Shown here one piece after another: positions 1 through 27,880 of a DNA stretch of 60,162 nt. Origin of the DNA: Hysterium pulicare CBS 123377 (taxonomy: Eukaryota > Ascomycota > Dothideomycetes > Hysteriales > Hysteriaceae); NCBI GenBank assembly GCA_000467715.1, contig AJFK01000548.1, positions 1 to 60,162 on the forward strand, read 5' to 3'. Both the position numbers and the translations under genes were made by a program. Each line of letters opens with the position of its first letter. Positions within the stretch are counted from its first letter, which is position 1. The notes under the pieces were generated by a model, which saw nothing but the letters and a program-made list of their open reading frames with translations, was not told the origin of the DNA and made no database searches.

Positions 1-3000
1 ATGTATCATCGAAAGGAAAACCCGTAGGGTGATGATCATCGACAACGGACCCAAGCCTTCGTCTGTTATTAAAATTCACATGAAGATGGTCGTCTTCATC
101 ACCGCTCCTCCGCTCCTCCGCGTCCAACTTTCCTTTCTATCTCAGCTCTCAAAACAAAGCATGAAGTGCTGACTCTTCCCAAATGTGGTAAACTTCACAG
201 CATCCATGAAGTGTAGGGGGAAAACTGCTAGCCCCTAAGAGCTACAGATTGGGTTGTCTCGGAATATGACTTCGGGGAGCCCATAAAAGAGTCCAAAGTC
301 CCATGGTCCTTATTGTCTGCTTGATTTTGGAAGCCAGGAGGCCGGTCCCAGCCATAGCTTTGAAGATGTGAGTAAGGGAAAAAAGAAGAGGGGAGGGCGG
401 TTTTATATCACAAAAGGAGTTAAAGATGAGGAAGCATGGTCCACTTAGCTGAGAGTGTCCGTGGCTTGGGAGAGAGGGAAAGAAACGAAAAGTAGAATCA
501 GACATTGAGAGCGGTGATGGAGAGCATCACTACCCTTCACCGTTCTTCCTTATCTTCTCTACGAAATAAAACCAAAGCCTTTGAACTTCCATCATACCCA
601 ACACCCACAAACTACTCAAAGCATATTTTGATCGTGGTAGCTGTTGGAATATTCTAGTCCTATGAGCAAACAGCAGCAGCAAACAGTGATGATGGGCTAT
701 ATCAACTCACCCATATCTTATATCAAGGAATCACGGCTTCCAACCAACAGTAGCTGATTTGAAAATACCAATCCCACATCAAGCGTATAGAAGTGTCGAT
801 TTAATCCTTCAGAGCCCATTATGATCTCGTGCTCTCCGATTTGAACTTCAGGTGCTCCCAGACAAGAAAACAAACTCCCATGAAACCATCCTCGGTTGGG
901 TTTTTGAAGCCCAGCGGATCTGCTTCAGCCTTAGCTTTGAAGATATGATTTAAATTTGAGCGTAGGAGCATGAAGGGTTTTTATATCTTGAAGAGGTAGA
1001 AGGACGAGTAAGCGCTTTGTGGAGCGGGTAAGTTCTAGAAGAAAATAGCATTCAAGAAATTAGACATCGAAAGTGGTGAAGGATATCATCATCTTCACTC
1101 CGCTCTCCGCGTACAATAACCCCGATATACTATTAACTTGACACGCGAGACCAACCCCACAGTATCGGCTAGCTGCTTTTTCCAATTTAAAAGCACACAT
1201 ACGTTGACTACTGCTGCGTTTTGGGATTCTAAATCTATGGCCGTTCGCAGCTGTGTATATTACATTTTGACGACGGTGTCCCCGGCACAGCAGCCTCTCC
1301 CATATAGCTTTCCGATCGGTCATTTTTGGACCGTCGCTGATGGATTGTGAAAAGAGAATTGAAAGAACGGAGCAAAAGGGAGTTTATATATTTTATGAAA
1401 GGCAACAGAGAATGTGGGAACATGAGTAAGCATACTCAACAAACCCCTACCATCGATCTATAGCGCGATAGAGTGAGTGGGTTTCGCACAGATAGACGTC
1501 GAAAGCGGTACTGAAGACCATCACCACCCTCACCTCTCATCACTCCCCAAGCAATAAAACCCCTAAGCTTCCAAAGTTCTATTGTACTTGACGGCTCGAA
1601 TACCCCCACAACATCGACGCTAAACCTTCCTCGAGTTTGGAATCACCAAATCCCATATGTAGGAGAAAGAGCACCTAACGATGGATCCCAGAGCCATGAT
1701 ACCTCGCGGCGTAGCAATTCGAAATTCCTGTTCCCCAAAATAGCCCAACAACCATATAGGATGAGTTTGGAAAGGTTTAGACTGTTGCATGAACCATCTT
1801 TCTTTGTGCGTGTAAGGAGGAAAGCAAGAAGATGGAACATAAGAGGGTTTACACAATTTGAATGAAGTGGAAGGAGGAGTAAGCAGAGATGTAGAAATCA
1901 AGTATGACGTAGAGCAATCGAAGAGCAGAGAATATTTTATCAAATGGGTAGAAGTGAGTATTGAGAGCGGTGAATCTGTGATGGAGATCATCATCTTCAT
2001 TCCGCTCTCCGCCCAATACTACCCCACGCTCCACTAACTTGAACACCCATGTTGAACAGCGCGCACACCCCCATAGCATCAGTTGTCTGTTTGGCTGAAT
2101 TTGGAAACTTCACGGCATATGGAGCTGATGAAAAGAAGATTTTAGCAATCCGAGCCATCGTGCCTCGTCTCCCCATTTTCTGAATCTCCTGATCTCAGTA
2201 CATGGGGCGACCCCCGTAGAGAGAATAGCTCATGACTTTTGTGCGTTTAGTGTGAGTGTGGCACGGTTTTAAAAGGGAAGGGAATAGCTTATATATCTCA
2301 ACGAAAGAGGTGGAGGAAGTGGAATGATGAGTAAGCAGAAGCAAAAGTGAAGTAAAGCGCTTACAAGTAGGGGGAGTATCGAAAACCAGTGAATATCATT
2401 AGCGGTGTTGAATCGTTGTCACCATCACTCCCTTCGCTACCTTCTCTTCCAAATCCAAGACCCTCGGAAGCCTGATCATGCACACACACCAACATTTTTC
2501 TTCCAAAATTTGAAAACCCAATCCCGCATCATAGATATCTTTTGAGTGTTTTTGGTTCCCAAGAGCCACAATGCCATGTACTTTGGCGATGTGGACTTTG
2601 GGTGATCCAGGGAAGAGACCAACTCTTATCGATCTACGTACATCAAGAAATTGTTCCAGCCTCTTGGATTCTGGACTCTTTCTGTGCCGAGTGTGAGGAG
2701 AAAAGCCAAAAAGACGGAGCAGAGGAGGGTTTATATATCTTGGAGAAAGAAGTGGAGAAGGGGAAAAGATGACTAAGCCTAGTCAGCTAGGTGCATACAA
2801 ACCGTACCTGATGGTGAGAAGGAAGAAGAAGTATTTTTCGCATCAAGAGCAGTGATGGAGAGTATCATCGCCTCGCCCTTCTCCGTGTAATAAGCCTCCG
2901 AGCCACTGACTTCCCCCTTACCCAAAAACCACAAACTCCCGAACCATGGTGAAGCCTGAGAGTGGCTTTGTAGATTTGGAAACAGCAAATCCCGCATGAA

Positions 3001-4950
3001 TCGATGCCAGTAGGGACTATAGTTCTCCAGAGCCATGATGACTTTCTATTTGGCATTTCGAAGGTCTTTATCCCAGCGCAGTGGACATCTCCCAAATGCC
3101 TCCATGCAGTCTCTTTTCGACTGCAGTTTGAACAAGTTCATGTTGAGTGTAAGGAGAAAACGTAGAGGATGGAGCAGAGAGGGTTTTTATATCTTTAGTA
3201 GGAGCGAGAGGTTAGAGATGAATAAGCAAAAGAAAGGAAGCAAACTTACAAAAGACCTGCGGAGAAGGATCTCTCGCAATCAAAGTAGTTTGTAGCAAGT
3301 CTGATAGGTATCATCATCGACTCCACTAATGATTTTCAACCGAAGAAAGAAGCAGTTTTCGCCTCGGAAGCAGCGATAGAGAGAATCACTACCTCACTTC
3401 ACCACTCACCGCACTTCCTTATCATCCCCCTACAACACTTTTCTCAAATTTCCATTCTGGAAATCTTCACCATAACCTGAGCCCACAGACCGCCAAAACA
3501 TCTGCCCTCAGGTGTCCGACTGTCGACAATCTGGAGACAGCAATCCCATGAAACGCTTTACATAGCTATCTTTATAGCCATGATAAGCCGTTGCATGGAT
3601 TTCGAAAGCACTTCCCCAATAGCAAAACAACGGCCAAGGCTCTCATATTTTCAGGCAAAGTACGAAATCTTTTGTACTACTGCTTGAGAAATTCCATGCT
3701 GAGTGTAAGGAGAAAAAAGAAAAGACAGAGCAGAGAGGGTTTATATATCTTCGGAAGGGATGGAGAGATTCTGGGGATGAGTAAGCTAAGTGAAAGAAAA
3801 CGAACGAGCCTATGGAAGACGTGTTGGAGAGATCAATATCTCTCGTTCGAAGTAGTCTTTAGGAATACTGGTGAACATCATTAGCAATGCATCATCCCTC
3901 CCCTCATTATACTTTTCACAGTAATAGTCACCATCACCGCCCTTCAACTTCCGATCCATCCTCACTTCCCCATCTGGCCTAAGCTCCGACAAACTCTCAC
4001 AAATCCTGCAAAACATAAAGGGGTTATCTGTCATGGATGTAAACCACCAAATCCCAAATTGCATCTTTTTGCAAGATTTTTTTTAGCTCCCTCAGAGCTC
4101 ATGCAATATTACTTCTTCGCGGTTCGAAGGCAGTTTGCCCAGCACAGTGGGCATCTCCATCAACATCAATGCTATGGTTTTTGTGTTGAGCCCGTACGAG
4201 TACGACAGCCGAAATCCCCATGGAAGTTTTTCGATAATTCTTTGGATTGCCGCTTGAGCATTTCCATGCCGAGTGTGAGGAGGAGAAAACCAAAAGGACG
4301 GAGCAAAGAGAGTTTATATATCTTAGCAAGAGGTAGGTGAGGTAGAGATATTGTGGATGAGTAAGCAGAGGAATGGAGTTGGGCTCATGAAAGAAATATG
4401 GTGAGAAGAGTATTTTTAACGATCCGGAGCGGGGAGGATGTAGGAAAGTAACGAATGGCATCATCGACAGCCGAACAAGACCTTCTTCCTCGTTGTGATT
4501 CTCTCGATAATACTCATCACCGCCATCTCATCCCTCAATTTCATCAGTCTCCCATTCCACATCCCCGACCCTGGAAGCTTCCTTCGCACACCCAACTTCC
4601 CCCAGCAAGACCCATTGCAGTTAAGCTTTCACATTTGGAAGCTCCAGATCCCATGTGTTTTTTAACCCAAATTTTATTTTTGTCCCCTAGCGCCCATAGT
4701 AATCTTTGATTTTCATTTTTTTGAAACCCGTCATCCCAGCCACAGCGAGCGTCTGCCATGCTGCGACATGTTGAAGTTTTAAGACTGTCCCAGCTCGACG
4801 ACCGAAGCCCCATACAATGTTTTGAGGTGATGATTTTTGGACTGTCTTTTGAACTTTTTGGTGTTCGGTAAGTGGAAGTTGGATGGAGGAGGGGAGGAAG
4901 GGGTTTTTATGTTCTTCAAGGAGGCGGATGATGGCGGCGATGAGTAAGCG
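1..4950 (-). repeat. tandem array of about ten diverged TATA-bearing modules
   Basis: Read on the minus strand, each 400-600 bp unit contains, in order: a site close to GCTTACTCATC, a TATA box (best form GATATATAAACCCTC), a pyrimidine-rich leader, a CACTCAGCATG-like start, a GGCTCTG-containing box, a GGGATTTG...TCCAAA box, and a box ending in GATCTCCATCACCGCT. On plus-strand coordinates the TATA boxes are near 401, 978, 1383, 1845 (decayed), 2287, 2730, 3184, 3737, 4310 and 4904. The upstream sites are near 425, 1003, 1421, 1874, 2326, 2768, 3217, 3776, 4356 and 4939. The body boxes are at about 511-530, 1073-1094, 1505-1525, 1969-1993 and 2852-2867, and at 1639-1660, 2974-2999 and 3528-3551. 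Spacing between copies runs from 405 to 594 bp. No copy has a long intact reading frame. It could be a tandem family of short genes, their decayed copies, or noncoding transcription units. Confidence 0.75.
3697..3786 (-). promoter_or_regulatory. best-preserved promoter-like module of the array
   Basis: Minus strand: the GCTTACTCATC site lies at 3786-3776, a perfect TATATAAA box at about 3745-3738, a CT-rich stretch follows, and CACTCAGCATG ends at the ATG at 3697. The order and distances (about 30 bp from site to TATA, 40-50 bp from TATA to ATG) recur in the copies at 4366-4267 and 3227-3141. The TATA orientation and the downstream pyrimidine tract favour minus-strand transcription. This is inferred from sequence only. 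Confidence 0.5.
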
Positions 4951-5209
4951 GGGATTATGTAAGATTATGCTGGGGAGATATAGATAGTGGATAGTTCAAT
5001 ACTAGATATGTTGATAAATATACAATAATCTAACGAAAGAGACGGGTATTCTAAACTCTATATAGATCAATTCGAAGGGAAGGCGTATAGTACAAGTACA
5101 ACCGGGTATCCAAAACAAATCTCCTCAATAATCTTCCACGAAATGCCAGAAACTCCAATCCCACAAAAGACTCAACCCCCTACACCTTCCCTCTTCCCCA
5201 TCTCTATCA

Positions 5210-13088: not shown

Positions 13089-15114
13089 TCATTCGAGAGT
13101 TATCATTTCGCAGACCTGAACATTGGGAACATCCATCAATTCCCCATCCGTCACTCCATGATAGTAGCTCTCTCCTATTAAGATATAGCGCGATGGTTTA
13201 ATCTGACGCAAGACTTGAGGCAGCATACATCCAAGAAGAACGTAGGCAAAATCACCAACAATGGCGTGGCTCGGCGCCAATCCAATGAATCCACTGTCGA
13301 GGATCGCTAGACGCTTGCCCCAGCAGACTTGAATGCAAGAGCGGAAGCCATTCTGCGTCATGCTAAGCATATCCGCTGGACTGAAGAGTAATTTGCCATC
13401 GTTTTCCTCTGACATTTGCTCGTCGGAATTCTCTTCGGCGTCATTACTGTTCTGCTCTATTTCCATATCAGGAGATTCTTCACTGGAAAGCCTTTAGCCA
13501 CAAGACTGATCTAATATCTTAGATCTTTGGAAGAGTGCACTATCCTCACCTCCCATCCGACGACGTATCTCCAGCATCCTCCGGAGGCGGCCTCGTCATT
13601 CGATTATTACGATTCGCCACAAGCGTGCGGCAAAATGCATCAAGAACGTTCTCCGGACCACCATATCTTTTTTCGATCTCCAACCAGATTGGAGAGTCAA
13701 GAATCATATTAAGCCAGCTATTAAAAGTTGCCGAGTCGCTCGCGCTCTTCCCATTTTCATCGCTCCTTCCAAAAGTTTCCATATCTTCAAAGGTCATTCC
13801 TTCGTCAAGTTCGCCAAGAGCTACGATGTGGCCGAAGGAAAACCCGGCGACCGACATCTGCATCCCAGCGTCCGAGAACTCTACTTTGGCGACTGAAGAA
13901 CCGGCAGTCCTATACTTCTCAAAGTGCGCAATGGGCGAGCCGGTGAAGTTATCACCACCGCAATATCTTTCGTTGATACAGAGGCCCGGGACGATCTGAT
14001 CAGTACTCCAATCCGGAACCCACGTCGGCATTTCATCAAAGTTCCTCGGAAATCTGCATGCGCATATCATATCGAGCGACGCTGTTGCAGCCACATGCTT
14101 TCGAAAAAGATCAGCGTATACCTCTTGCGGAGAAGCGTTATAGTCTGGCCTGATACGCATATCCACACCATCTCCAGACAAACCGAGCAGTCCGAAAACG
14201 TGATCTCTAGCATCTGTTGCTTCACAGTCTCGATGTTGATGTAGTAATTCGAGGACCCTGAAGCGTGGATCCGTTGGCTTCACGTGGCGACATTGTGCCA
14301 TGCGAATCCCGTTCTGGAAGCCGTTCAGCGGCTCATCTGGATATTGCGTCCAGAAGTTGGAGTTGGCTGTGAACCAGCATTCCTCGATCGCATACGCCAC
14401 GACTAGCATGTCGAGCCATCGCAAGGTTCTATCGCCGCACGTTATGAGAGCGTTTGCTTGGTTAGCAAGGGAGAGTTCCTGCACGACCCAGACTCTCGTC
14501 CACCACGGCCGCTGAAATATGTTATTGAGTGCTTTTATGATCTCCGGAGAGCTTTGCTCGAACTCCTCTTCCCATAGATCTCGATAGCCACTTTGCGACC
14601 CTTGAGCCAGCATATCTTCTGGGTCGGAAACCACAGCGGCTAGTCGACGGATGATGTCCATTGCCGCGTAACAATTTTCATCTGCTTTCCCCAACCATAC
14701 TTCCACTGTGTCGGCCAAGGAATATATGTCGCGCATCCGGAGCACCTGCTTGCCACGTTCGTCCAAATCATTTTGATTAATACAGACGGCATCAACCCAG
14801 AGCGTTCGGCATTCGTTCGGATGTCGCAAGTGCTGTAGAGCATCATACAGGTTTGCAGTCACATGTACTTCGTAGCCATCTATGAGGATCGACCTCGTGT
14901 TGCTTGGATCACCCCATGTGTATGATAGTGCGGTATATTTAGGTGCTGCATGGAGAGGAGCGTGTCGCAAAGTACAATGAATCTGCTGATCGGCAGCATC
15001 TGCATTGAGCTCGAGCAGACGGATTTCATTATTCCTAGTCGAGAGCTCTTTGTATGGATATCCAAATGTCATCTCGGAGGTGTTGATGTATTGTTGAAGT
15101 AGTAAACGGTCCAC
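13089..15114 (-). CDS. HET-domain (heterokaryon incompatibility) protein
   Basis: Two exons, 15114-13550 and 13482-13089, joined by a GTGAGG...CCAG intron of 67 bp that restores frame and gives about 652 residues. The HET signature is clear: IRLLELNA (31-38), YTALSYTWGDP (60-70), LWVDAVCINQND (105-116), then a conserved DIYSLADTVEVWLG block. The C-terminal exon carries the usual tail of this family, GLAPSHAIVGD followed by a GESYYHG segment. HET proteins trigger cell death when incompatible hyphae fuse, often downstream of NLR-type receptors. A NACHT-ankyrin gene lies about 4.6 kb to the right on the same strand. The ATG at residue 15 is an alternative start. Confidence 0.92.
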
Positions 15115-15740
15115 AGCTTAAGTCTGGTTAGTAAGCAACTTCTCCGCTAATAATCTTCTAAATTGGACGACCAGGCATCGGTTACATGTCCTGATGAGAG
15201 CACTCGATGAGAGACACGTAAGCTAACCAATTATTCCTTGATATATTGTTGAATTCCCACGTCTACACACCCCCGCATGTCCGCCCCCAATTCCAAGCAC
15301 GCGAAGGATTTACGCCCCGTTATAGGGTGGATGTGGTCCAAACACCATTCAAAAACGCACCTATTGCCGAAACTCTGCATCGTCTATCTCATCAAAGAGA
15401 AGTCTGCCTCGAGATGTATTTTGGGTATCTCGTCTTGGTCTCGTGGTCCGACGCAACAATATCTCGTTACTCGAAGCTTCATTGACTACGAATTTGCAAA
15501 GCGCGCTCTCAACGTCGAAGGAGGCTCGGTGCATCTAAGTCTATGGCCCAATGGAAGAGCGTGGCATGGTTCAGTATGAAGTGATACCCGCGCGCTAGCT
15601 TTCCCTGTCGAGGTAGTTGCATCTCGCGCATTATGCTGGTGAGGCTGGATTTCGATCTACGGCGATAGATAAACACTCCAGCCTGGCCACAAAAACGCAG
15701 GCATTCTCTCTCTAAACATCTCCTTTCAGCCTCGTTCAAA
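15115..15740. other. intergenic between HET gene and surface-protein gene
   Basis: Divergent upstream region of about 625 bp serving the minus-strand HET gene and the plus-strand surface-protein gene. No RNA gene or repeat was recognised. Short open frames have no visible support. Confidence 0.4.
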
Positions 15741-16742
15741 ATGCACCGTTTACGAGCGTTACGTTTCTTGGGTCTTCTTCTCGGTCTCTCCGCACGAGTT
15801 TCCTTCGCTCAGACATGCCATTGGCCAAATGGGGACGTGGATACAGCAAACCAGCCTTGTGGGAACTTCAACTCGTTTCAGAATTGCTGCGGAGTGGGTT
15901 ATGCGTGTATGAGCACGACGCCTTTTTGTCTGTGGCTGGGGGATTGGCAGATGGATAGGACGTCCTTTACGGGGGATGTGGATTTAAGCTCTGTACCGTG
16001 TGCTAGAGGTAAGTCGATATGTTCGCGATGCAAGCTGCACCTGCTTCCGTTAAAGTACTCGATTCTCGGTCGTAGAAAGGTACTGATAGACTTTGTCCTA
16101 GAACCTAATGATGGACACGCCGACATGACACCTTGCGCCCCCAACTCCACTGATGGATCTATCACCTATTGCTGCGGCACATCTCTAGACTGCTGTCCTG
16201 GGAACTCGAATCCCAATGGCCAGGGCTCGTGGATATTGTCGTCGCTGCCGATGGGCGATCTGTCGGTCGTGGGCTCGACCGCTAGCACGGTCACTCAAAC
16301 TGTCAATGTGGCATCTGGCACTACGCTTCCGCAAGCCACCACGACCGCGACGACGACCCTCGCGCAGACGGCTCAGCAAAGCCAACTTATCACTTCGACG
16401 AATAGCGCGGGCCAGGCGGTGGTGACATGTGCGATTGGCGACCGCTCGAGCCATGATTCGAACAGGGCTCCTGTAGGTGCTATTGTGGGAGGCACTATTG
16501 GTGGCGTGGCGCTCCTGTGCTGTACGGCTGCTTTCCTGTTCATAGGATCTCGAATGGGATGGTTTACGAGGAAGGGGACTGGGGAAGGGAATCTGTATCA
16601 AGGACATGGGCAATTTGAAGTACCACCGAAGCCGTACGATGCCAGCCGTGTCTCGTCGCCGCCTCATTATAATTATCCGTATCAGGCGCCGCAGATGGGA
16701 TTGAATGAGATGGCGGTGCAAGGGCATCAGCGGTCAGTTTAG
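15741..16742 (+). CDS. secreted Cys-rich single-TM cell-surface protein
   Basis: The frame is open for 333 codons, but a GTAAGT...CTGATAG...CCTAG intron at 16009-16101 (93 bp, a multiple of three with no stop) probably makes the protein 302 residues, joining CARE to PNDGHADMTPC. Residues 1-23 are a signal peptide ending before QTCHWPNGD. A Cys-rich ectodomain follows (NCCGVGYACM, YCCGTSLDCC), then a Thr/Ala-rich stalk, a transmembrane segment (VGAIVGGTIGGVALL onward), and a short basic then Pro/Tyr-rich tail. This layout is that of fungal Mid2/Wsc-like surface sensors or mucins, though no named family is clear. Confidence 0.7.
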   Translation: MHRLRALRFLGLLLGLSARVSFAQTCHWPNGDVDTANQPCGNFNSFQNCCGVGYACMSTTPFCLWLGDWQMDRTSFTGDVDLSSVPCARGKSICSRCKLHLLPLKYSILGRRKVLIDFVLEPNDGHADMTPCAPNSTDGSITYCCGTSLDCCPGNSNPNGQGSWILSSLPMGDLSVVGSTASTVTQTVNVASGTTLPQATTTATTTLAQTAQQSQLITSTNSAGQAVVTCAIGDRSSHDSNRAPVGAIVGGTIGGVALLCCTAAFLFIGSRMGWFTRKGTGEGNLYQGHGQFEVPPKPYDASRVSSPPHYNYPYQAPQMGLNEMAVQGHQRSV

Positions 16743-18251
16743 AGAAACTCGGTGATATGAGGAGGGATGGCCATTGTCTTCGTCTGGTTCTAAAATAGGC
16801 GACTATTTCTAGAGCCTTCAAGTTTCATTTCGCAGAGGCTTTTGAAGATCACCCATTTCGATCACAGATCTTCTCTCTTCATTGTTTCACATGACTAGAT
16901 ACCTCTGCTTACTCATCCCTCTGTCCCTTTTTCATATTATTCAAGCCCCTCTCCTGTTCGTCTTTGAACTTCCCTCACACTCACAGCTAGCACACTCAGT
17001 GGCGGGATTCCAAAAACCCACCGACATCGCGACCGAGAGCACATTGCCATGTGCTGTAGCGACAAGGACAGGATGGTTATGCGGACCGAGTGCCTTTGCG
17101 GGAATACCTCAATCTGTGAAATTCGCCATCAACATGGAAACTACAAACGAACTCCCAAGCACCGTCATGGGCGCGGTCGAGTCCAAAAAATCCAGATTAG
17201 ATGCTAGTGCCGTGCTGCGCAGAGATCCGGCTGTGGTTTCAAGTGTTGGACTGGGCTTAACTATACTTGGAAATCGCAAGGAGTGGTAGCGAATAGAGGA
17301 GGTGATGAGAGTGTAATCTCGGTGATGAAGACGCTTCCGATGTACGTTGGAAGTAGCAGGGATATAAAGCAGCATTCGGGGACGGTGATAATCTTCACTA
17401 GTATTTCAAGAGTCTGATAATTTCCCAGGCAGCCTTTCATTTGTATTCCTCTTCTCAACCGCCCCAAGCAGCTCGCTCCATTGGACGGCCAGAGGAAATC
17501 GAATTGTTGGTATGCTTCTTTTGAACCACACATGAGTGGCAACGTTGTTTCAAGTAGGAGAAGACATCGGCACAAGATGCCCAAACACTGGAATCTTTGT
17601 GCCGGGCGTCTAGCAGTAAAGAACAAGAAGACAGAGGGAAGAAGGGTTTATAAGTACGAAAGGAGGCGATTAATGAGGGCCACGTGATCGACTAAGGTAT
17701 ATGGATATTAGATGTTTGCTCATCTTTCCAAGACTTTCTGTCACGTTGTGTAGTCTAAAAACCACTACTTTCCCTCCTCTTTCACAACCTTACAGGGTAC
17801 TCAAGTCCTCAACCAGCAACTGTGTTTTGCTCTTGGACACAAGAAGCGGACGGGAAATCACTCAATGGAGCCCGGCGCGGGGTAAATCGTGAGAGCAGCG
17901 GAGAACATGGCGGGATTTCGAGATCGGATTTGAGCGCTGGGATCTAAGAGATGGGATGAGTAAGAAATGAAGTGGAAGAGCTTGGTTAGATCTTGCTGAT
18001 GATCCTTATCAGCACACCAGGAGTTGACTTATCTTCCAAAACTACCATCTCCCTCTCCGTGGATACCGCACCGAACCCACCCGCATTGGGGCCCGGATCG
18101 ACAAGGTGTCGTCGGAGGTCTGGCGGGTTCTAGGGGATAGTGGAGGGTTGGTTGAAGGGAATTGTAAGGAAGTAAGATGATTTGTATTTCCTGTCGCTGA
18201 TGATCCTCATTACCTCTGGTGTGAAGTGTTCAGCATCCTTCTTCAATCATC
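16743..18251. other. intergenic with solo copies of the array module
   Basis: A plus frame at 16882-17289 (135 codons) begins with a hydrophobic signal-like run but has no recognisable domain. On the minus strand the 17.2-17.7 kb segment resembles one unit of the left-edge array (listed separately). A further site-like sequence, gggatgagtaag, lies near 17953. Confidence 0.4.
17261..17690 (-). repeat. solo diverged copy of the left-array module
   Basis: Minus strand: a TATAAACCC box at about 17652-17644 is followed by a pyrimidine-rich leader, as in the array. A 121-codon frame (17626-17261) then runs through a segment resembling the array body, including FDFLWPSN where array copies read WDLVIPN or RDLLFPN. 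A VKIITV stretch stands where array copies read MMISIT. The similarity is weak and partial, so a pairwise alignment is needed to confirm it. Confidence 0.35.
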
Positions 18252-19292
18252 ATGCCTCAATCCGTCACACTCTTTAACACCCTAACCGCATCATTGACTT
18301 CTTCCTCAATATCTACAGGTCTCCTATACAAGTCACCTCCACAGGTCTATTACATATACTACATAGAAAACTCCAACTTCAGATTAATCCATGGAATAGT
18401 CAAGATCCCTATATTCGAAGAGCACCTCTCTATCTGTACCAAAGCACATCGCGCGTTGGAAAGGTCAGACTCGTTCTCAGCTAAGGTGTGCACGCAATGA
18501 GGCTGTCGATGCGATGGCACGAAGAGCCCAGCCTATCCGGCTTATTTCATACAAGCAATCCTACCCTATCTCTCATCGAACGTCTCGCTCAACACCCCCA
18601 TCGAGCCCAACGTTTCCCGGGGGCTATATCAACGACATCCCCAGCGACTCTCACAGCGCTGAGCACCTGCATCGACTGAAATGGCTTACCTCCCAACAGC
18701 AAAGTCGTGGACGTTGGCTAAGCATTTATCTAACCAACACCTTTCCGCACCAGAAGTTCGTTGTGCGAGACAAGGCCGCAGGTGATTGAGGGTGCTGCGG
18801 TGAAGATTCTAGAAGGCGTCCAAGATAGAGTTGAAGTTATGGCGCATGATTCATTTACCGAGCAGCCGATCAGGGAGGCGGATGTCTATCTTTCCCGATA
18901 CGTTCTGCACGACTGGGCCGACAAGTACTGTGTCAGTATACTGAAGAGTCTGGTTCCGAGCTTGAAAAGGGTGCGAAAGTTGCCATGCAAGATCACTTGT
19001 TACCGGAGCCGCGAACTTCATGGTTATTTCAACAGATTCACATCCAGTAGGTAGCTTAAAGCTTTTCGGAATAGTGGCGGAAATGAAGCTTTCTATTTTG
19101 CCTAAGCTCGAGGGATGCAATCATGTTCTCGCCTTTCAGTCCTTGAGAGCGCGAGTAACACTGGAGGGTATGTTTGCAGAGGCTAACACGGCATTCCTTT
19201 TCACCGCGAAACGCATTGAGAAGAATCCATCTAATGGCGTGATGGTCGTCGAGTGGAAGTCGCGGGCGATAAAGGAACATCGTAACACCTGA
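18252..19292 (+). pseudogene. broken O-methyltransferase (SAM-dependent, COMT type)
   Basis: Pieces of a fungal O-methyltransferase occur in order but in different frames. These are SNPTLSLIERLAQHP (about 18560), the SAM motif start KVVDVG (about 18703) followed by a frame break, SIYLTNTFPHQKFVVRD (about 18723-18773), then RYVLHDWADKYC in a second frame (about 18897). After another shift come GAKVAMQDHLLPEP (about 18970-19010) and the C-terminal LEGMFAEANTAF...VVEW (about 19160-19255). Family members methylate hydroxyls of aromatic secondary metabolites. At least two frameshifts and a stop separate the pieces, and not all can be removed by plausible introns. A badly interpreted multi-exon gene remains possible. 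Confidence 0.65.
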
Positions 19293-19754
19293 TCAGTCCG
19301 ATTTTGGACGGAAGCTGGGTTTCTCGAAATCCTTTCAATAGCTTCTTGTGATGTGAAAGTTTCATTGTTTGCTATCTTTCTTTTTATGGTTTTGTCTGCT
19401 CTTTAAACACTGGGTATTCTTGACCATAAACAGCATTGAAAGACTTTTTTACGTGCTACGTACTACTTATACTATTCACGTTGTACTTTGAGACGAGTAC
19501 CGTGCTATTCATGTCAAGCAAGATTATACCAAGAGATCATGTTCGACTCATTGACTCGTCAACGGTGACGATAGCGTACCAGAGCCAAAGAAACTAAACC
19601 AATGAGAACTCAACGCAAAATCAAAAAGCAACACCGTTACATCATTCAATGAAATCAACCATGAATGAGAGCTTTAAATATAATAACCTCTTACATGTGG
19701 TTGAGCTTTACCAAACTTTTCTTTATATTCATTGGGGTTGAACGGAAAAACGTT
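19293..19754. other. intergenic with half-copy of the MITE-like repeat
   Basis: Positions 19665-19720 match 12276-12330 closely: about 23 of 25 in the AATGAGAG...AATA part and about 28 of 36 in the arm. The opposite arm is not visible here. The repeat sits just 3' of the NACHT-ankyrin gene. Confidence 0.45.
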
Positions 19755-22700
19755 TCAAACTAAAGAGATGTCTTGAGTGCGACTTAATGGAACCAAAGTC
19801 CTCCAGTTCGCTTTCATGCGCTGCACACGAAGAACATACTTCCAAAGAGACTCATCATCCCGCTTGATATGACATCCTCTTAGCGGTATGCGAAGCTGCC
19901 TGATGCCTGACCAGAACTTCAAATCGTCTTCCGAAGCATTCGCCGCGATATCAATCTTTGGCTGCTCCGTGTATCTTTGAGTAAGAAGCCAATCGATAAC
20001 GATCTGATGATGTCTTGCAGCTTGTATCGCGTTTATCGTCGTGCCGTTTCTGTTGTACATTAACTTAGCGCCCTCTCTGACGAGTAATTTCACCGATTCG
20101 AGTCGACCGGCTGAGCACGCTGCCATCAAAGGACTTGCGTAACGGCGACTTGTACATTCTGGATCTGCGCCAGCTTTTAGCAGGACTTCCATCCAGCCAA
20201 TATCACCCGTCAACGCAAACTGAAACAGAGGTGGGATTGTTTGACGTGTCTCTAAGTTGAGGAGGCTGGGCAACAAATCTTTGGGGAGGCGTCTGATTAG
20301 TCGTTTGAAACTACTTATGCCACCCTCAACTGTCGCCACTATGTTGTATTCACTTTCTTCGCAAGCCTTAAGCATGTTGAAATCGAGTCCTAAGTTTAGG
20401 ACATGAGGAGAAAGTCGATAGTTTTTTGCTCCAAGATAGAGGGGTGATTCCCCGAAGGTGTTCATCTGGTGTGGGTTATAGCCTGCATCCAACAAGTAGA
20501 TAAAGAGCTCCGGATTGTCAGTTTTTGCCGACAAATCCAGGGCAGTTTTCTCTTCAAGGTCGACAGCGGATAGATCCGCATACTTGTTTAACAGTTCAAC
20601 GATTGCCAAAGCACCATGGCGGGCACCAACCATGAGCGGCGTTCTTAGGCAGTAGTCCGGAAGGGTCGGATCTGCGCCATGTTCCAGCAGAGTTCTGGCA
20701 CATGGAGTACAATTTAAACTTGCCGCATAATGTAAGGCTGTCCAACAATCTTCGCCGCGAGCGTCAACTTGCGCGCCATTTTTGAGAAGGCTTGAGACAG
20801 CGCATGGTTTATGAAGCCAAACTGCAAGATGCAAAGTAGTAGCACCTTTCAGATGGCCTTCGTTGTCAAGGACGTGTTCCAATTTGTTGTCGAGCAAATG
20901 TTGCAAAACAAGGTTCATTGTGGGCAAACGAACTAGACCAGACGGTCTAAGTACGTGGGCACTGTAATCATGATCAGCAAAAATGAACCTCTCTCGCCGA
21001 TTATGCTATGGGAAACTTACGCATACAGCTCGTGGTGGTCACGTACGTGACTCGTTACTATATCAATGGCGCCCTCGTTGAATTCAACAGCAATTTGGAT
21101 AGGGCTGAGGGTACTCCACATCCAATGGTCCTCATTTTCCAAGCACGCATCCAATAGGACCGGAAGAATATCGTCAAATAATGGGTTCCTGACGGCAATA
21201 TGGATACTAGTTGCGTTCGAATAACCGCACGTGTTGTGTGTTGGACATGGAACTCCTGAGGTACAAGCGCCTTCCTGGATAAGAAATTCTGCGATGGCTT
21301 TTTGGCCCCATGATAGCGCAAGAATCAAGGGACTGCAGCCACCGCAAGGCATTGCTAGTGTTGAGGCTTTGGCAAGTGCCCCTTGCTCGACAATTGCCCG
21401 ACACGCCCCGAGATCTCCTCGCTCTATCGCATTACTCAGAGCATAGAGCAAAGCTGTTTTGAATTCGTTCAGGCCTGTAGCTTTTGAGATGGTGTTTTCT
21501 TGTGCTACCCGAAGAATTTCTGCGATCCCCAATCGTTTTTCCTGGAGTGCTAGAATTTGTGGGCTCCTCCCTGCGCCGTCAGGAACCTGCTCAGCGCCAG
21601 CTTCCACGAGTATTGAGACTGTAGTTTCATCGTCTGCATGAACAGCAAAGTGCAATGGGGTTTCTTTGTCGCCGAAAGACTTTGTATTAACATTTGCTCC
21701 ACTGCCGATGAGATAGCAGACGATATCGTTGCGGCCCTTCAAGGCGGCAATATGCAGCGGAGTGAACCCATCCTTACTGAATTCATCAATGTTGACATAG
21801 TAGCCCGTGCCAGCAAGGAACTGGAGTGCGTCCAGATACCCGACCGCTGCTACTAGGTGAAGAGCGTTACCTTGAAGCGGAACGGAACCCCCTACATACA
21901 ACGGGAAATGCACCGTCCAGTCCAGAGTCTCGTGAGCATAATCGGCTAACTTCTGTAGAATAGCAATACTTCCACTATATGCCGCCCAGGCCATCACTCC
22001 CATTCCCGAAGGAGGCATTTCATTCAACCGAGCCATCTCTGCATGTTCGAGCAAAGTGGTGAACACGTCGATGTCACCTCGTTGACATGACAATTCCAGC
22101 GCCGATTGTTCATCGTGATGGAAGCTTCTGGAGTGCACGTTGATGCCGCTTTCCAACAGGAGTTTAATTAAGTCAACCTGCTGCAGCTCAATTGACCATC
22201 CAAAAGCTCGGATCACTTGAGCGTGATTCATGCTAGGCTTGAGCAAGGACGTCTCAGATAGGACATGGTGCAACAGCTTTGTTATAGCGCTACAGACCTC
22301 GGAATCGTTCACGCGTGAATACATGTCGAAGCAATTCTCCGCTAAGATGATGAAGCCTGATTGCTTCTCAACTCTCTCATAATCTGACACGACTCCATGA
22401 TCCATCAAAGTCTTCTCAAGTGATTCCAATAACTCATAGTGACCCGGCCCGACGCATTGATTAACGCAACTCGAACAATAATAGTGCCAGGCCGTCTTGT
22501 CCTTGCTGTCTTTTGAAGCTCCCGCATCTCCGGACGCAAGTTGTCGCAAGACTTCACGAGCATTTGTGAGAACCCATGCATCGAAGTGCGTGCTTGAAGA
22601 GATCGTTGCAAAGCCAGATCCTCCCTCAAGGAATGAATGCAACGGTGTTTGACCGTCCTGTCGGGTTTCGCCTGGATCCAAACCGGAGGACAACAACGTG

Positions 22701-25700
22701 GCTACGAGCTCTGGTGGAGACCATGCACTTAGAAAGTGCAGGGCATTGGAACCATCACTACTTTTGATTCCAGGATCGACTCCGTATTCTATTAATCTCT
22801 TGACCAAGGTAACAAGCCCCGCCCGGGTGCACTGGTGAACTAAACGGCAGTCTTGTAGCGTGTCATGAGTAGAGTGTGCTTGGTCCAGTAAAAGTAGGCT
22901 CGTTGACTCTTTGCCGGCAATAATTGCTTCCAACAATGGCGTATTACCTTCACCAGATGGCTTTGATAATTCCGGGCTAGATGAACCATACTTTTCAATG
23001 AGGATCTCGAGGGTTCTCACTGCACCACAGCGAGCCGCCTCATGCCAAGCGGTCCGGCCCGAACTGTCCTCGCTCCTGGAACATCCCTCGTTGTTTACGA
23101 GCATCCGAATGATATCGTCGTGCATTAATGTAACACACTCGTAGAGGGGCGTCCTTCCAGTAGTGGTAGTAATCCCGGCATCAGCTCCGCTGCCTAACAA
23201 GAACTTCATGACCTCGATTGAATGATGCTTAGCTGCAAAATGAAGTATAGTTCCCTCGGTATTTGGGACCGACATGTTCACATTGTATCTGGGATCCCCG
23301 CGAAGTTGCTCCAATAATTCTCGTTGGTCAAATTTAATCATATGATGTATCCTTTCATAAAACAAAGAGTCGGATATATCCAAGGCAGTATCGTGGTGTT
23401 GATGTTTCAAAAGTTTTTGGTTCGCTTCCACCCCCTTTTCACGCGCCAGCTTCAGCAGCTCTATTTTGGCACCAGATGAAATACATACATCATCAATACC
23501 GTCTAAAAAATCAAAAAGTTGCAGTAGCTCCTCCTTTGACTCCATTAATCCCATGAAGCTAATGAAGTCATGACGTAGGGGTGCTCCATGGCTGATAACC
23601 TGGAATAAAATGCAAGATTCGTCAAATACTCCCACACTGGCCCCCCATGCAAGAGAGTACCCTCCGTGTGGGTCCTCAGTGCCACAATTAGCCCCGGCAT
23701 TGATGAGGAGGCTAACAGTCGATTTTGCATCTGAGGAGTCTATGTTGTGATCGTGGTCAGCGTCGTAGTCTTCAATACCAAAAATGTTACACCCTAATAC
23801 GGCACACCGTAGTGGTGAACCAATCTTGGAGATTTGATTAACGTCGCATCTTTCTTCATTCAAGAGCCATTGACAGAGGATTTGCACATGTAAAAGTGCG
23901 GCGAAGTGAAGTGGCCGAAAATCGCCAGCCGAGGTCTTGGATAAGATCTCTGCGTACATATGTTCATATTGGGGGTCAGAACATCTCCAGGCACCCCAAA
24001 AGTACCCCAGGGAAGCGTTGATAAAGTTCAAAGACTTTTTGGGATGGAAAAGCCGTTTTCCCAGGATTAGGAAGTTACTATCCTCCCAGGCTCCGTGCGC
24101 ATAGTCTGGCCATGCGTTCGCTGCGTGTTCATAGAAAGGGTTTTTATCATCTCTTTCTTTTATGGCCTGGAATGTAGATAGGGGCGGTACCCTGAATTCA
24201 GGAAAGTTCAGGTATCTCAGGCATGTTTTCGCAAGGTAAGTCTGATCCGAAGGGCATATGTGAAATTTCCTTAGAAACGAATCTTCTGATCCAATGGTCT
24301 GGAGATATTCCTGGACACTGAAGTGAGCGAGTTCGAGGAAGTCTCCTGATTTTCGTACTAGACTACTACAGGCACGTAGAAGCTCCTCCTCCTCTGGCTT
24401 CGCCTCTTGGTCAAGGCATTCCATGTCATCTTCGATTGAAAGTGCTTCCAAAAGAGCTGAAGTTTTCAGGCATGGAGTTGCATGAATAATCCATCGCAAG
24501 GTCGTCTGCACGAGATGAACTACGGGCTCTTTCTCGCGAATCCTCCGTAATATCCTCTCGTACGTCGCGTTGAGAGTTTTGGGAAGCTCATTTAATGCCT
24601 TTCGTTTGCTAGCATCAGTGGGTAGTTCGCATAAGTGGTCAAGCTGGCAAGCGACCCAGCGAAACCTAGACACGGTCAAATTACTACTAGAAGCATTTTT
24701 TATGACAAACTTCAGGATCAACTTACATTCCAGCCGCTTTTGAGATCAAGTGGTCCACGATTTCGTCCTTCAGTGCAGGATTCCGTATCCGGAGCTTTTT
24801 GGCCTTACTTCGCTCCTCAATTTCGGCCCTAACGTAGTGTTCGATGTCTTCGGTATGTGCAGCGACCTCTATATGCTTACAATCCTGCCCTAACGCGTTA
24901 CAGATCTCTGGCTCAGGCCTACTTAGTAGAGCAATTGCTATGTTACCGTGGGTCTCAGATACTAAACGTTTTAATGCAAGCGCGGCTTCTTCAGTGTTGT
25001 CGCCGCATTCGTCCAGCCCATCGATCACAATTCGCACGTCGTCAAAACTGGAAGTAATTGCTTTCACGACTGAAACTAATCCTTCGACATTTGGCTTCTT
25101 GGCAAGTTGATCTTTTGGGTGTAGAACATCATGATATCTCTTCAAACATTCGAAGCTTTCTTCCTGCTGCCGAGCGATCTGAGACGCCAACGACGCGAGT
25201 ATATTGACTACGGTCTGACTATCCGGCTTTTTGTAGTCGCAGAAAAAGTAAGCAACCGCTCTGGATGAGCTCGCTCTTGTACGGCATTCCTGGATGATTA
25301 AGCCGGACAGGACTGTCTTGCCGGCACCAGGAATGCCGGTCAGCCATATGCTTGAACCTCGATCCTGCATCCATTGACGAAAGATATCGCCCTCGGTAAG
25401 CCAGAATCCAGTAGTCGGGTGACGGAGTTTCAAACTGGTCTGGTAATTTTCTGAAGGATCGAAATAGAGAAAGAAGCGGAGAATGCGCTGGCGCTCTTCG
25501 TCTAGCCTAATCCGGGTTTCCAATTTCTGTTTGGTGCGAAGCATGTCCTGCATCTCGATGAGGTTCTCGGTTATGTCTTTTTGAGCCGAAAGTAATTTGA
25601 AAAGTGTCACTATGCTGTCTGCGGAAAGAGCAAGGCTGAGGATCTGTTGGTGGCGCCTAAGATCCTCAAGAATAGATTCCGTTTCCTGCGATGAGAAAGG

Positions 25701-26036
25701 CCACTTTAACTTTCGTACGGAAGCGAGAAGTTTTCGGTCTTTTGGGAGGTCGAACTCGTCGAGTTTTGTCTTGACTTTGTGGAGTAAGGCACGACAGGAG
25801 TTGACATGATCCATTCGAATCGAGGTCCTCAGTGTCCCATCATTTTCAAGTTCTTCAGCGACTACACGAAGATTGTGAAGAACACCGTTCAGGGACCCAA
25901 TCTCTTCTTTGAAATCGGTTATTTCTTTCTTCGCATTTTTGACCGATTTTACATAGTGAAAGATTCTTCGAAAGACTGTGTCTCCAAGAGATGTCAATCC
26001 CGCGATAGAAGCAGCCACGGAGAGGGGGTCAGCCAT
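19755..26036 (-). CDS. NACHT-ankyrin STAND (NLR-like) protein
   Basis: Three exons: 26036-24727, 24665-21021 and 20961-19755. Donors are GTAAGT and acceptors are TCTAG and ACAG, phases agree, and the product is about 2,053 residues. The N-terminus (MADPLSVAASIAGL...) is the fungal STAND N-terminal (Helo-like) domain. The NACHT module has Walker A GIPGAGKT (234-241), Walker B RIVIDGLDEC (335-344) and a sensor-like ALLSRPE (369-375). A winged-helix-like region follows (KAAGMFRWVACQLD across the first intron). The remaining roughly 1,500 residues are ankyrin repeats with intact cores such as TPLHIAALKG and TALHYAA. In this family NTP binding couples ligand sensing by the repeats to an N-terminal death or signalling domain. 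No frameshift is seen, so the gene appears functional. The HET gene is nearby. Confidence 0.92.
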
Positions 26037-26719: not shown

Positions 26720-27215
26720 CTAAATGTGAGGACGGAGGGTTTGGGAAGATAACGAGTAGTAAGTTGTGGTGTAGATCACCTCCATCACTACTATTCCCTT
26801 CTTATTAAGAATCCTTTGTGTCTCTTGAAAGTTCATCTCACAATGATATGACCTTCCACATTCAACCGTTTTTCGCCACGTCCTGGTTCTCTTCCTCCCC
26901 CGAATACATGCCCATACCATTTGGGAGCCCATGGATCCTCCGAGGTGGGATTCTCAAACCAATAGCCTCGTCTTTATTCGAACGACCGAAAAGTCATCGT
27001 TTGATAAATCCCCGACTTTTGGTTACCCAGGAAGGTAGTCCATGATGCCATTTATTGCCATTGCCGTACAAGGGGCATATCGCATACTAGTGGCTTGCTT
27101 GAATTCAGGTCTCGGACTCGGTGGCATGCTGTGAGGAGCGGGAGAAGTCCGAGTAAGATAGGGCTTTTATAAACGAGAGATTCTCTTGCGGAGCAGCAGG
27201 TGATGATTATGTAAG
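26720..27215 (-). repeat. solo copy of the left-array module
   Basis: Minus strand: TATAAAAG at about 27171-27164, then a leader ending in CTCACAGCATGC (about 27135-27124), which matches the CACTCAGCATG start of array copies. Downstream the body includes the GATGGAGGTGATCTAC-type box at about 26788-26766. A 70-codon frame (26932-26720) carries KKGIVVMEVIYTT, resembling EKGEAMILSITAL of the array copy at about 2850. The order of boxes is the same as in the array. Confidence 0.5.
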
Positions 27216-27816
27216 ACTGGGCTTGCAATTACTACCCCTTCTCTCCTGCAACGATATAAATCCCGATCTGATTCGCGATCGCAGGTACCGAAAATAACAT
27301 GGGCTTTTTTGTCTAGGCGGATCTAGATTGCTACAATCTCCATCGCTATGGGGCTCTGTCGGCTTTCAGGAGATTTTTTAAGGTGGTGTACGGCACTGAG
27401 GTGGCGAGATATGACAATACTAATCCATTAAGGGTGAATTCGAGCATCCGAAGGTGCTGATAATTATCCTCTTCATCAAATGCTTTTGATCGTTTGGAGT
27501 ACTCGGCTCCAAACCAGTTTCTATTCCACTACATGATCCATCTTGCTTCTGGTTGTTGAAGCTGTTCGGTGCGCCGGACTACCAATACCACATAGCACGC
27601 AAAGTAGCACATCGATATTGATGCGCACAATCAACGTGACTCCGACGAGAACATCAGGCATTTTCGGCCCCCGATTTGGGCAAAACAGTCATAAAGTGGT
27701 CGTCACGGAAGTTGGCTCGCAAGCACGCGTCAAGTGAATCTTTCACGTTTTCTGATTTACCACGAAAATTTGCGACGTGATGTAAGGAAACAATAATTGG
27801 TTCGGCGGGGAGGAGA

Positions 27817-27880
27817 GTGTTTTATAGACCGAAGAGATTCCGCGAACGTCCTGGAGATTATATACTCTGCGTGAGTTACT
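27817..27880 (-). promoter_or_regulatory. isolated array-like TATA module
   Basis: Minus strand: a GTAACTCACGC-like upstream site (about 27880-27870), GTCTATAAAACAC (about 27829-27817), then a pyrimidine-rich CTCTCCTCCCC leader. A similar but weaker GTCTATAATACC box lies at about 28623-28612. No body boxes are convincingly aligned. Confidence 0.3.

Follow-up and report, generated by a model that had tools for sequence, protein, structure and literature searches.

A contig-end array of short, diverged promoter-bearing units in Hysterium pulicare and its dispersed relatives: candidate non-coding transcription units

Tandem RNA polymerase II genes for small RNAs, each with an upstream element and a TATA box, are known from the plant-type small nuclear RNA (snRNA) genes and the spliced-leader arrays. 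In fungi, long non-coding RNA genes and cryptic unstable transcripts are examples of short polymerase II units that lie between genes and have no conserved open reading frame (ORF). Here we describe a locus from Hysterium pulicare CBS 123377 that recalls both. The stretch analysed, hereafter the window, has 60,162 nucleotides and is the complete contig AJFK01000548.1 (C408) of an assembly of 37.2 Mb in 596 contigs (GCA_000467715.1). Its positions 1-4953 hold, on the minus strand, ten head-to-tail units of about 450 bp, which are strongly diverged copies of one another. As in the plant-type snRNA genes and spliced-leader arrays, the units are short, carry an upstream element ahead of a TATA box in fixed order and form a compact array; unlike them, they show no Rfam match, no conserved fold and no profile match to U2 or U5 loci. 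With the fungal genes and transcripts just named they would share the character of short intergenic polymerase II units lacking a conserved ORF, a character here predicted from sequence; they differ in being related in sequence, both tandem and dispersed, and in having retained their boxes. In our reading, the array is a cluster belonging to an old, dispersed family whose members are short RNA polymerase II transcription units, most of them non-coding, and we put the probability of this reading at roughly 0.5. The titles and opening parts of abstracts of openly licensed papers yielded no description of such a family, a silence that is weak evidence of novelty.

The features of the array are as follows:

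1-30: end of a multi-copy DNA transposon (ATGTATCATCG...CCCGTAGGG), at which the contig breaks
31-444, minus strand: unit W1, cut by the transposon end, with a diverged upstream site GCTTCCTCATC
445-1017, minus strand: unit W2, holding the dispersed element at 642-751
493-558, minus strand: example of the 3' palindrome region with its flanks, in W2
642-751: dispersed element of about 110 bp with TGTTGG..CCAACA ends, inserted in W2 and foreign to the unit
1018-1435, minus strand: unit W3
1436-1888, minus strand: unit W4, with a degenerate TATA box TTGTGTAAA
1889-2340, minus strand: unit W5
2341-2782, minus strand: unit W6
2783-3229, minus strand: unit W7
3230-3790, minus strand: unit W8
3791-4370, minus strand: unit W9
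4314-4321, minus strand: example of the TATA box, in W9, starting 46 nt from the start of the upstream site
4356-4366, minus strand: example of the upstream site GCTTACTCATC, in W9
4371-4953, minus strand: unit W10, with which the array begins

Nine of the ten units are 418-583 bp long, the 573 bp of W2 including the 110 bp of the insert; W1, shortened by the transposon end, has 414 bp. The boxes follow one another in the same order across the units: GCTTACTCATC, ATATAWAAACC, TCCTCACAC, ATGGGA/CTGGGA, ATGGCTCTGG and TGATGA..TCATCA. The initial annotation, made from the sequence alone, had proposed both the ten-unit tandem array and the fixed order of its boxes, and alignment and profile searches bear it out on both. 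With a profile built from the ten promoters, further units of identical orientation were located at the right-hand end of contig C59, and nine could be cut out. When each of these 19 units (W2 taken without its insert) was sought with a profile of the remaining 18, all 19 were recovered, with E-values from 5.5e-43 to 2.3e-7; of 20 dinucleotide-shuffled versions of every unit, even the best scored no more than 0 bits. Even with the promoter left out, the scan beginning at nucleotide 110, 17 of the 19 were found at E<0.01, the failures being W1 and W6.

Conservation within the units is uneven. The mean pairwise column identity across the 19 units falls from 0.85 (upstream site) through 0.77 (TATA box) and 0.59 (a TCCTCAC box) to 0.42 (body), against 0.36 in one alignment of shuffled units, in which the best block of 11 columns reached 0.47; the box columns compared here were picked after the alignment had been inspected. 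Among the 60 most diverged of the 171 pairs, the body (0.38) has nearly fallen to the shuffled baseline, with the site still at 0.82 and the TATA box at 0.73. The distances are likewise constrained: site and TATA box lie 28-46 nt apart, start to start, with a mean of 37 nt over the 19 units, and the first TYAC, searched for 25-70 nt past the TATA box, follows it in 17 of the 19 at a mean of 37 nt (standard deviation 4.5). The units thus have a TATA box with an initiator-like box at a constrained distance, as expected of an RNA polymerase II transcription unit. Across the wider set described below, 70 of 74 promoter-bearing units match at least six of the seven TATA letters, partly by construction, since the selecting profile includes the TATA box. 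Unevenness of this kind at near-saturated divergence is our main argument for selection on transcription signals. The initial annotation had hinted at such selection from the better keeping of TATA box and upstream site, and had named equal rates in these boxes and the spacers as what would speak against it; the alignment identities contradict such equality.

The units could also be remnants of a decayed gene cluster or of transposable elements, as their high divergence might suggest: even the 20 closest pairs average 48% identity in the body. Decay is expected to be even, yet site and TATA box are kept in the most diverged pairs. Nor do the substitutions have the character of repeat-induced point mutation (RIP), an unlikely source of the divergence: there is neither an excess of transitions (transition/transversion ratio 0.85 in the 20 closest pairs) nor a raised TpA/ApT index, for which the array and the remaining window both give 0.67. 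For the second RIP index the array has 1.37 and the remaining window 1.25; GC contents are 0.45 and 0.49, respectively. Transposable elements do lie at the array. The 110-bp element has 34 further matches in the genome, and among the 19 loci around such matches (L007-L025) related units were seen in four with a strict profile and in ten with an iterated one, itself trained partly on these loci. A DNA search with the array at E<0.01, however, found besides the array only 34 matches to the 110-bp element and 2 to the transposon end, and no unit-like DNA elsewhere; its counts are lower bounds. We consider remnants of decay or transposition a very improbable source of the units. Like miniature inverted-repeat transposable elements (MITEs) the units are short, repeated and ORF-less, and unlike them they stand head-to-tail, lack near-identical copies and have a conserved promoter: the MITE-like sequences at the array are the 110-bp element and the transposon, not the units.

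The transposon also bears on the extent of the array. The outer ends of C59 and C408 both carry one and the same transposon end, CCCTACGGGTTT..., with a TG flank in each; on contigs C104 and C300 this end is preceded by TA. From the shared end and flank we infer that the units of C408 and C59 probably form a single array of at least 19 units and about 9 kb, split by the transposon. A query of 248 bases from the C300 copy gave 19 matches, of which at least eight lie no more than 15 bases from where a contig ends, and the break of the contig at the array is attributed to this multi-copy transposon. The ten window units first proposed are real, with three amendments: the array continues on C59, bases 1-30 are a transposon end, and 642-751 is a dispersed element. 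The transposon itself has CCCTACGGG ends and TA flanks (here TG), and also occurs at L026 5264-5487 and from L027 5906 onward.

Relatives of the units were sought in 236 kb of loci from 42 sources, a biased sample, most of it fetched through a motif or the dispersed element. The 19-unit profile gave 44 matches at E<1e-3, the arrays included, and 90 after four rounds of iteration; these are counts of matches, not of units, and include split units and matches of the palindrome on both strands. Of the matches, 75 bear promoters, across 19 loci. Reversed sequence yielded none at E<1e-3 in any of the four rounds (lowest E 0.0084, in round 4), and there were none at E<0.05 in six arbitrary loci totalling 34 kb or in six U2/U5 loci totalling 19 kb. 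Local 30-base shuffles, which keep composition, gave 0.33 matches per copy at E<1e-3 vs 24 in real sequence outside both arrays; with a profile of the body alone the figures were 0.33 and 9. By these counts, composition adds to the family but cannot account for it. The relatives in the window, all outside ORFs of at least 200 aa, are:

16903-17456, plus strand: related unit with the site GCTTACTCATC kept and a degenerate TATA box
17350-17665, minus strand: related unit found by the iterated profile, divergent partner of 17719-18055
17719-18055, plus strand: related unit found by the iterated profile, divergent partner of 17350-17665
26728-27178, minus strand: related unit
27434-27835, minus strand: related unit found by the iterated profile

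Several points weigh against reading all of these as one old family of transcription units. The spread over 15 other contigs rests on the iterated profile, the strict one giving ten. A profile of the promoter alone finds few distant members (one at E<1e-3 and 16 at E<0.1, with none in shuffles at either threshold), so that the wider family rests partly on body and composition. Finally, one locally shuffled copy of the array reached an E-value of 2e-6 with the full profile.

By eye, the TATA box and the pyrimidine-rich stretch behind it are common to the clusters; the upstream site is common to most units within a cluster and different between clusters. In C408 and C59 it is GCTTACTCATC and in C536 GCTTACTAATC-like; seven listed units of C136 have a TTATCTAATC-like site in four cases and GATCTAATC in one; three of four listed units at L013 (C110) have CACATGAC; all three of C107 have CACGTG. 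The TTACTCA/TTACTAA core is one that we liken to bZIP sites. Same-strand neighbours less than 700 bp apart are spaced at 514 bp on average (38 spacings), and four pairs of units are divergent. At C550 (L050 1387-1633) a single GCTTACTC is flanked by two outward-facing TATA boxes, which makes the region a candidate bidirectional promoter.

The last of the boxes is a palindrome around TGATGA..TCATCA, which sits about 50-170 bp short of the unit's 3' end. It is assigned to that end because exact copies of its halves are absent from 4950-5200, the right flank of W10 upstream of the array. The iterated profile includes it as a conserved block. Outside the arrays, a model of the palindrome gives matches at E<0.01 in C536, in C136 and at 26.7 kb in the window; the weaker ones in other clusters do not surpass a match in an arbitrary locus. 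The deepest dip in local folding energy along the 19-unit alignment, -2.0 kcal/mol at columns 405-419, falls in the palindrome region (the next is -0.8), and is not seen by position in units outside this set. No compensatory pairing was detected: 70.8% of cells are paired vs 70.6% after shuffling in 14 units, and the arms pair with their own partners no better than with swapped ones (p=0.24). RNAalifold found no pair in any of seven windows of the 19-unit alignment, a weak test given the divergence, and single-unit folding gave a mean z of -0.56 (range -3.07 to 0.54). Since compensatory change is absent and the dip is not seen by position elsewhere, an RNA hairpin was dropped and the feature is described simply as a palindrome.

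A palindrome that matches both strands at several places without compensatory changes is also what might be seen if the array were untranscribed, diverged satellite-like DNA kept for proteins that bind the upstream site, the TATA box and the palindrome, and the position of the other window units outside the longer ORFs is compatible with this as well. The fixed order and spacing of site, TATA box and TCCTCAC box fit promoters better, as do the divergent pairs and the single units outside arrays, and we regard a pure binding array as unlikely.

Whether the units encode proteins was examined on unspliced frames, and the length of the ORFs tells somewhat against a non-coding product. Sense ORFs of at least 70 aa occur in 21 of 79 units vs 6.9 +/- 2.2 in local shuffles, and ORFs this long beginning within 110 nt of the putative start in 17 of 70 vs 4.2 +/- 1.8; antisense ORFs of the same minimal length are found in 18 of 79 vs 13.8 +/- 3.1. 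Such an excess would suit fast-evolving short peptide genes, possibly with small introns, in which the promoter is held in common and the proteins are free to change. The remaining comparisons favour them little. It is not clear that the openness is peculiar to the frame of the ATG: in the 68 units examined for it, frame 0 reaches 70 codons in 17, frame +1 in 11 and frame +2 in 13, and a Wilcoxon comparison of the open lengths gives p=0.08. The mean codon-usage score of 35 sense ORFs (-0.033) is near that of 103 spurious (-0.063) and 25 antisense ORFs (-0.050) and below that of real genes (+0.074, scored on genes used in training). Gaps in the 19-unit alignment have lengths in multiples of three in only 548 of 2131 cases. 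Among the best 40 of 72 matches between ORFs of different units, 39 involve overlapping copies of the same DNA, the remaining one pairs W8 with W9 in antisense, and none of nine ORFs compared with Pfam reaches the cut-off. A short protein-coding family, promising by ORF length, thus failed or nearly failed on frame control, codon use, gaps, protein comparison and Pfam, and we hold peptide genes to be improbable.

Known RNA genes do not account for the units either. Rfam gave no match at gathering score in the whole window, a relaxed search (E<=5) of positions 1-5000 gave only one chance-level match (E=4), and ARAGORN found no tRNA. A promoter shared with snRNA genes was rejected: none of six fetched loci, five U2 and one U5, matches the unit profiles at E<0.05. 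Together with the Pfam result for the nine ORFs, this agrees with the earlier statement that the array holds no known gene. Three candidates had been put forward at that stage; the family of non-coding RNAs fits best, short peptide genes fare poorly in the coding comparisons, and simple decay is at odds with the uneven conservation and the want of a RIP signature.

If the units are transcription units, their layout would be as follows: the upstream site, which for this cluster is GCTTACTCATC, a TATA box 28-46 nt on (start to start), a pyrimidine-rich, start-site-like TCCTCAC box about 37 nt past the TATA box, a body of 300-400 nt and a palindrome near the 3' end. RNA polymerase II would initiate at every unit, driven by a factor bound to the upstream site particular to the cluster, and the product would be a short RNA encoding no conserved protein. 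Selection would retain mainly the promoter and a few boxes; for this reason the function may lie in the act of transcription itself, or in an RNA with few sequence demands. More tentatively, and with rather less confidence, one may imagine a genome-wide class of short non-coding genes, in which each cluster has its own upstream site, a common core promoter and, at least in some cases, a common 3' palindrome; with promoters kept by selection and bodies near saturation, a cluster could then supply either transcription as such or an RNA that is free to vary. If transcribed, the units would form a gene class that standard annotation misses, because they lack a conserved ORF, show no RNA fold that was detected and have little mutual similarity at the level of BLAST; a profile from several copies is needed to detect them. 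They would also offer a natural experiment, with many adjacent promoters under selection and freely varying bodies, in which to ask whether transcription, not its product, is the selected trait.

Elsewhere in the window, the region 13546-26036 holds, at 13546-15114, a HET-domain protein and, at 21017-24721, a large ORF with ankyrin repeats; a neighbouring ORF may be NACHT-like, and the domain scan also found a fungal TRP-like domain. Seven U2 snRNA matches occur in the genome, six of them above the Rfam cut-off, and five were fetched. At one U2 locus the reversed site, GAGTAAGC, occurs 154 nt ahead of the U2 match. By eye, several of the fetched loci (L058-L062; C387, C569, C87, C180 and C40) show the 5' end CTTTGCCTTTTGGCTTAG, then a GTATGT-like sequence, with the remainder downstream, and it looks as if these U2 snRNA genes contain introns.

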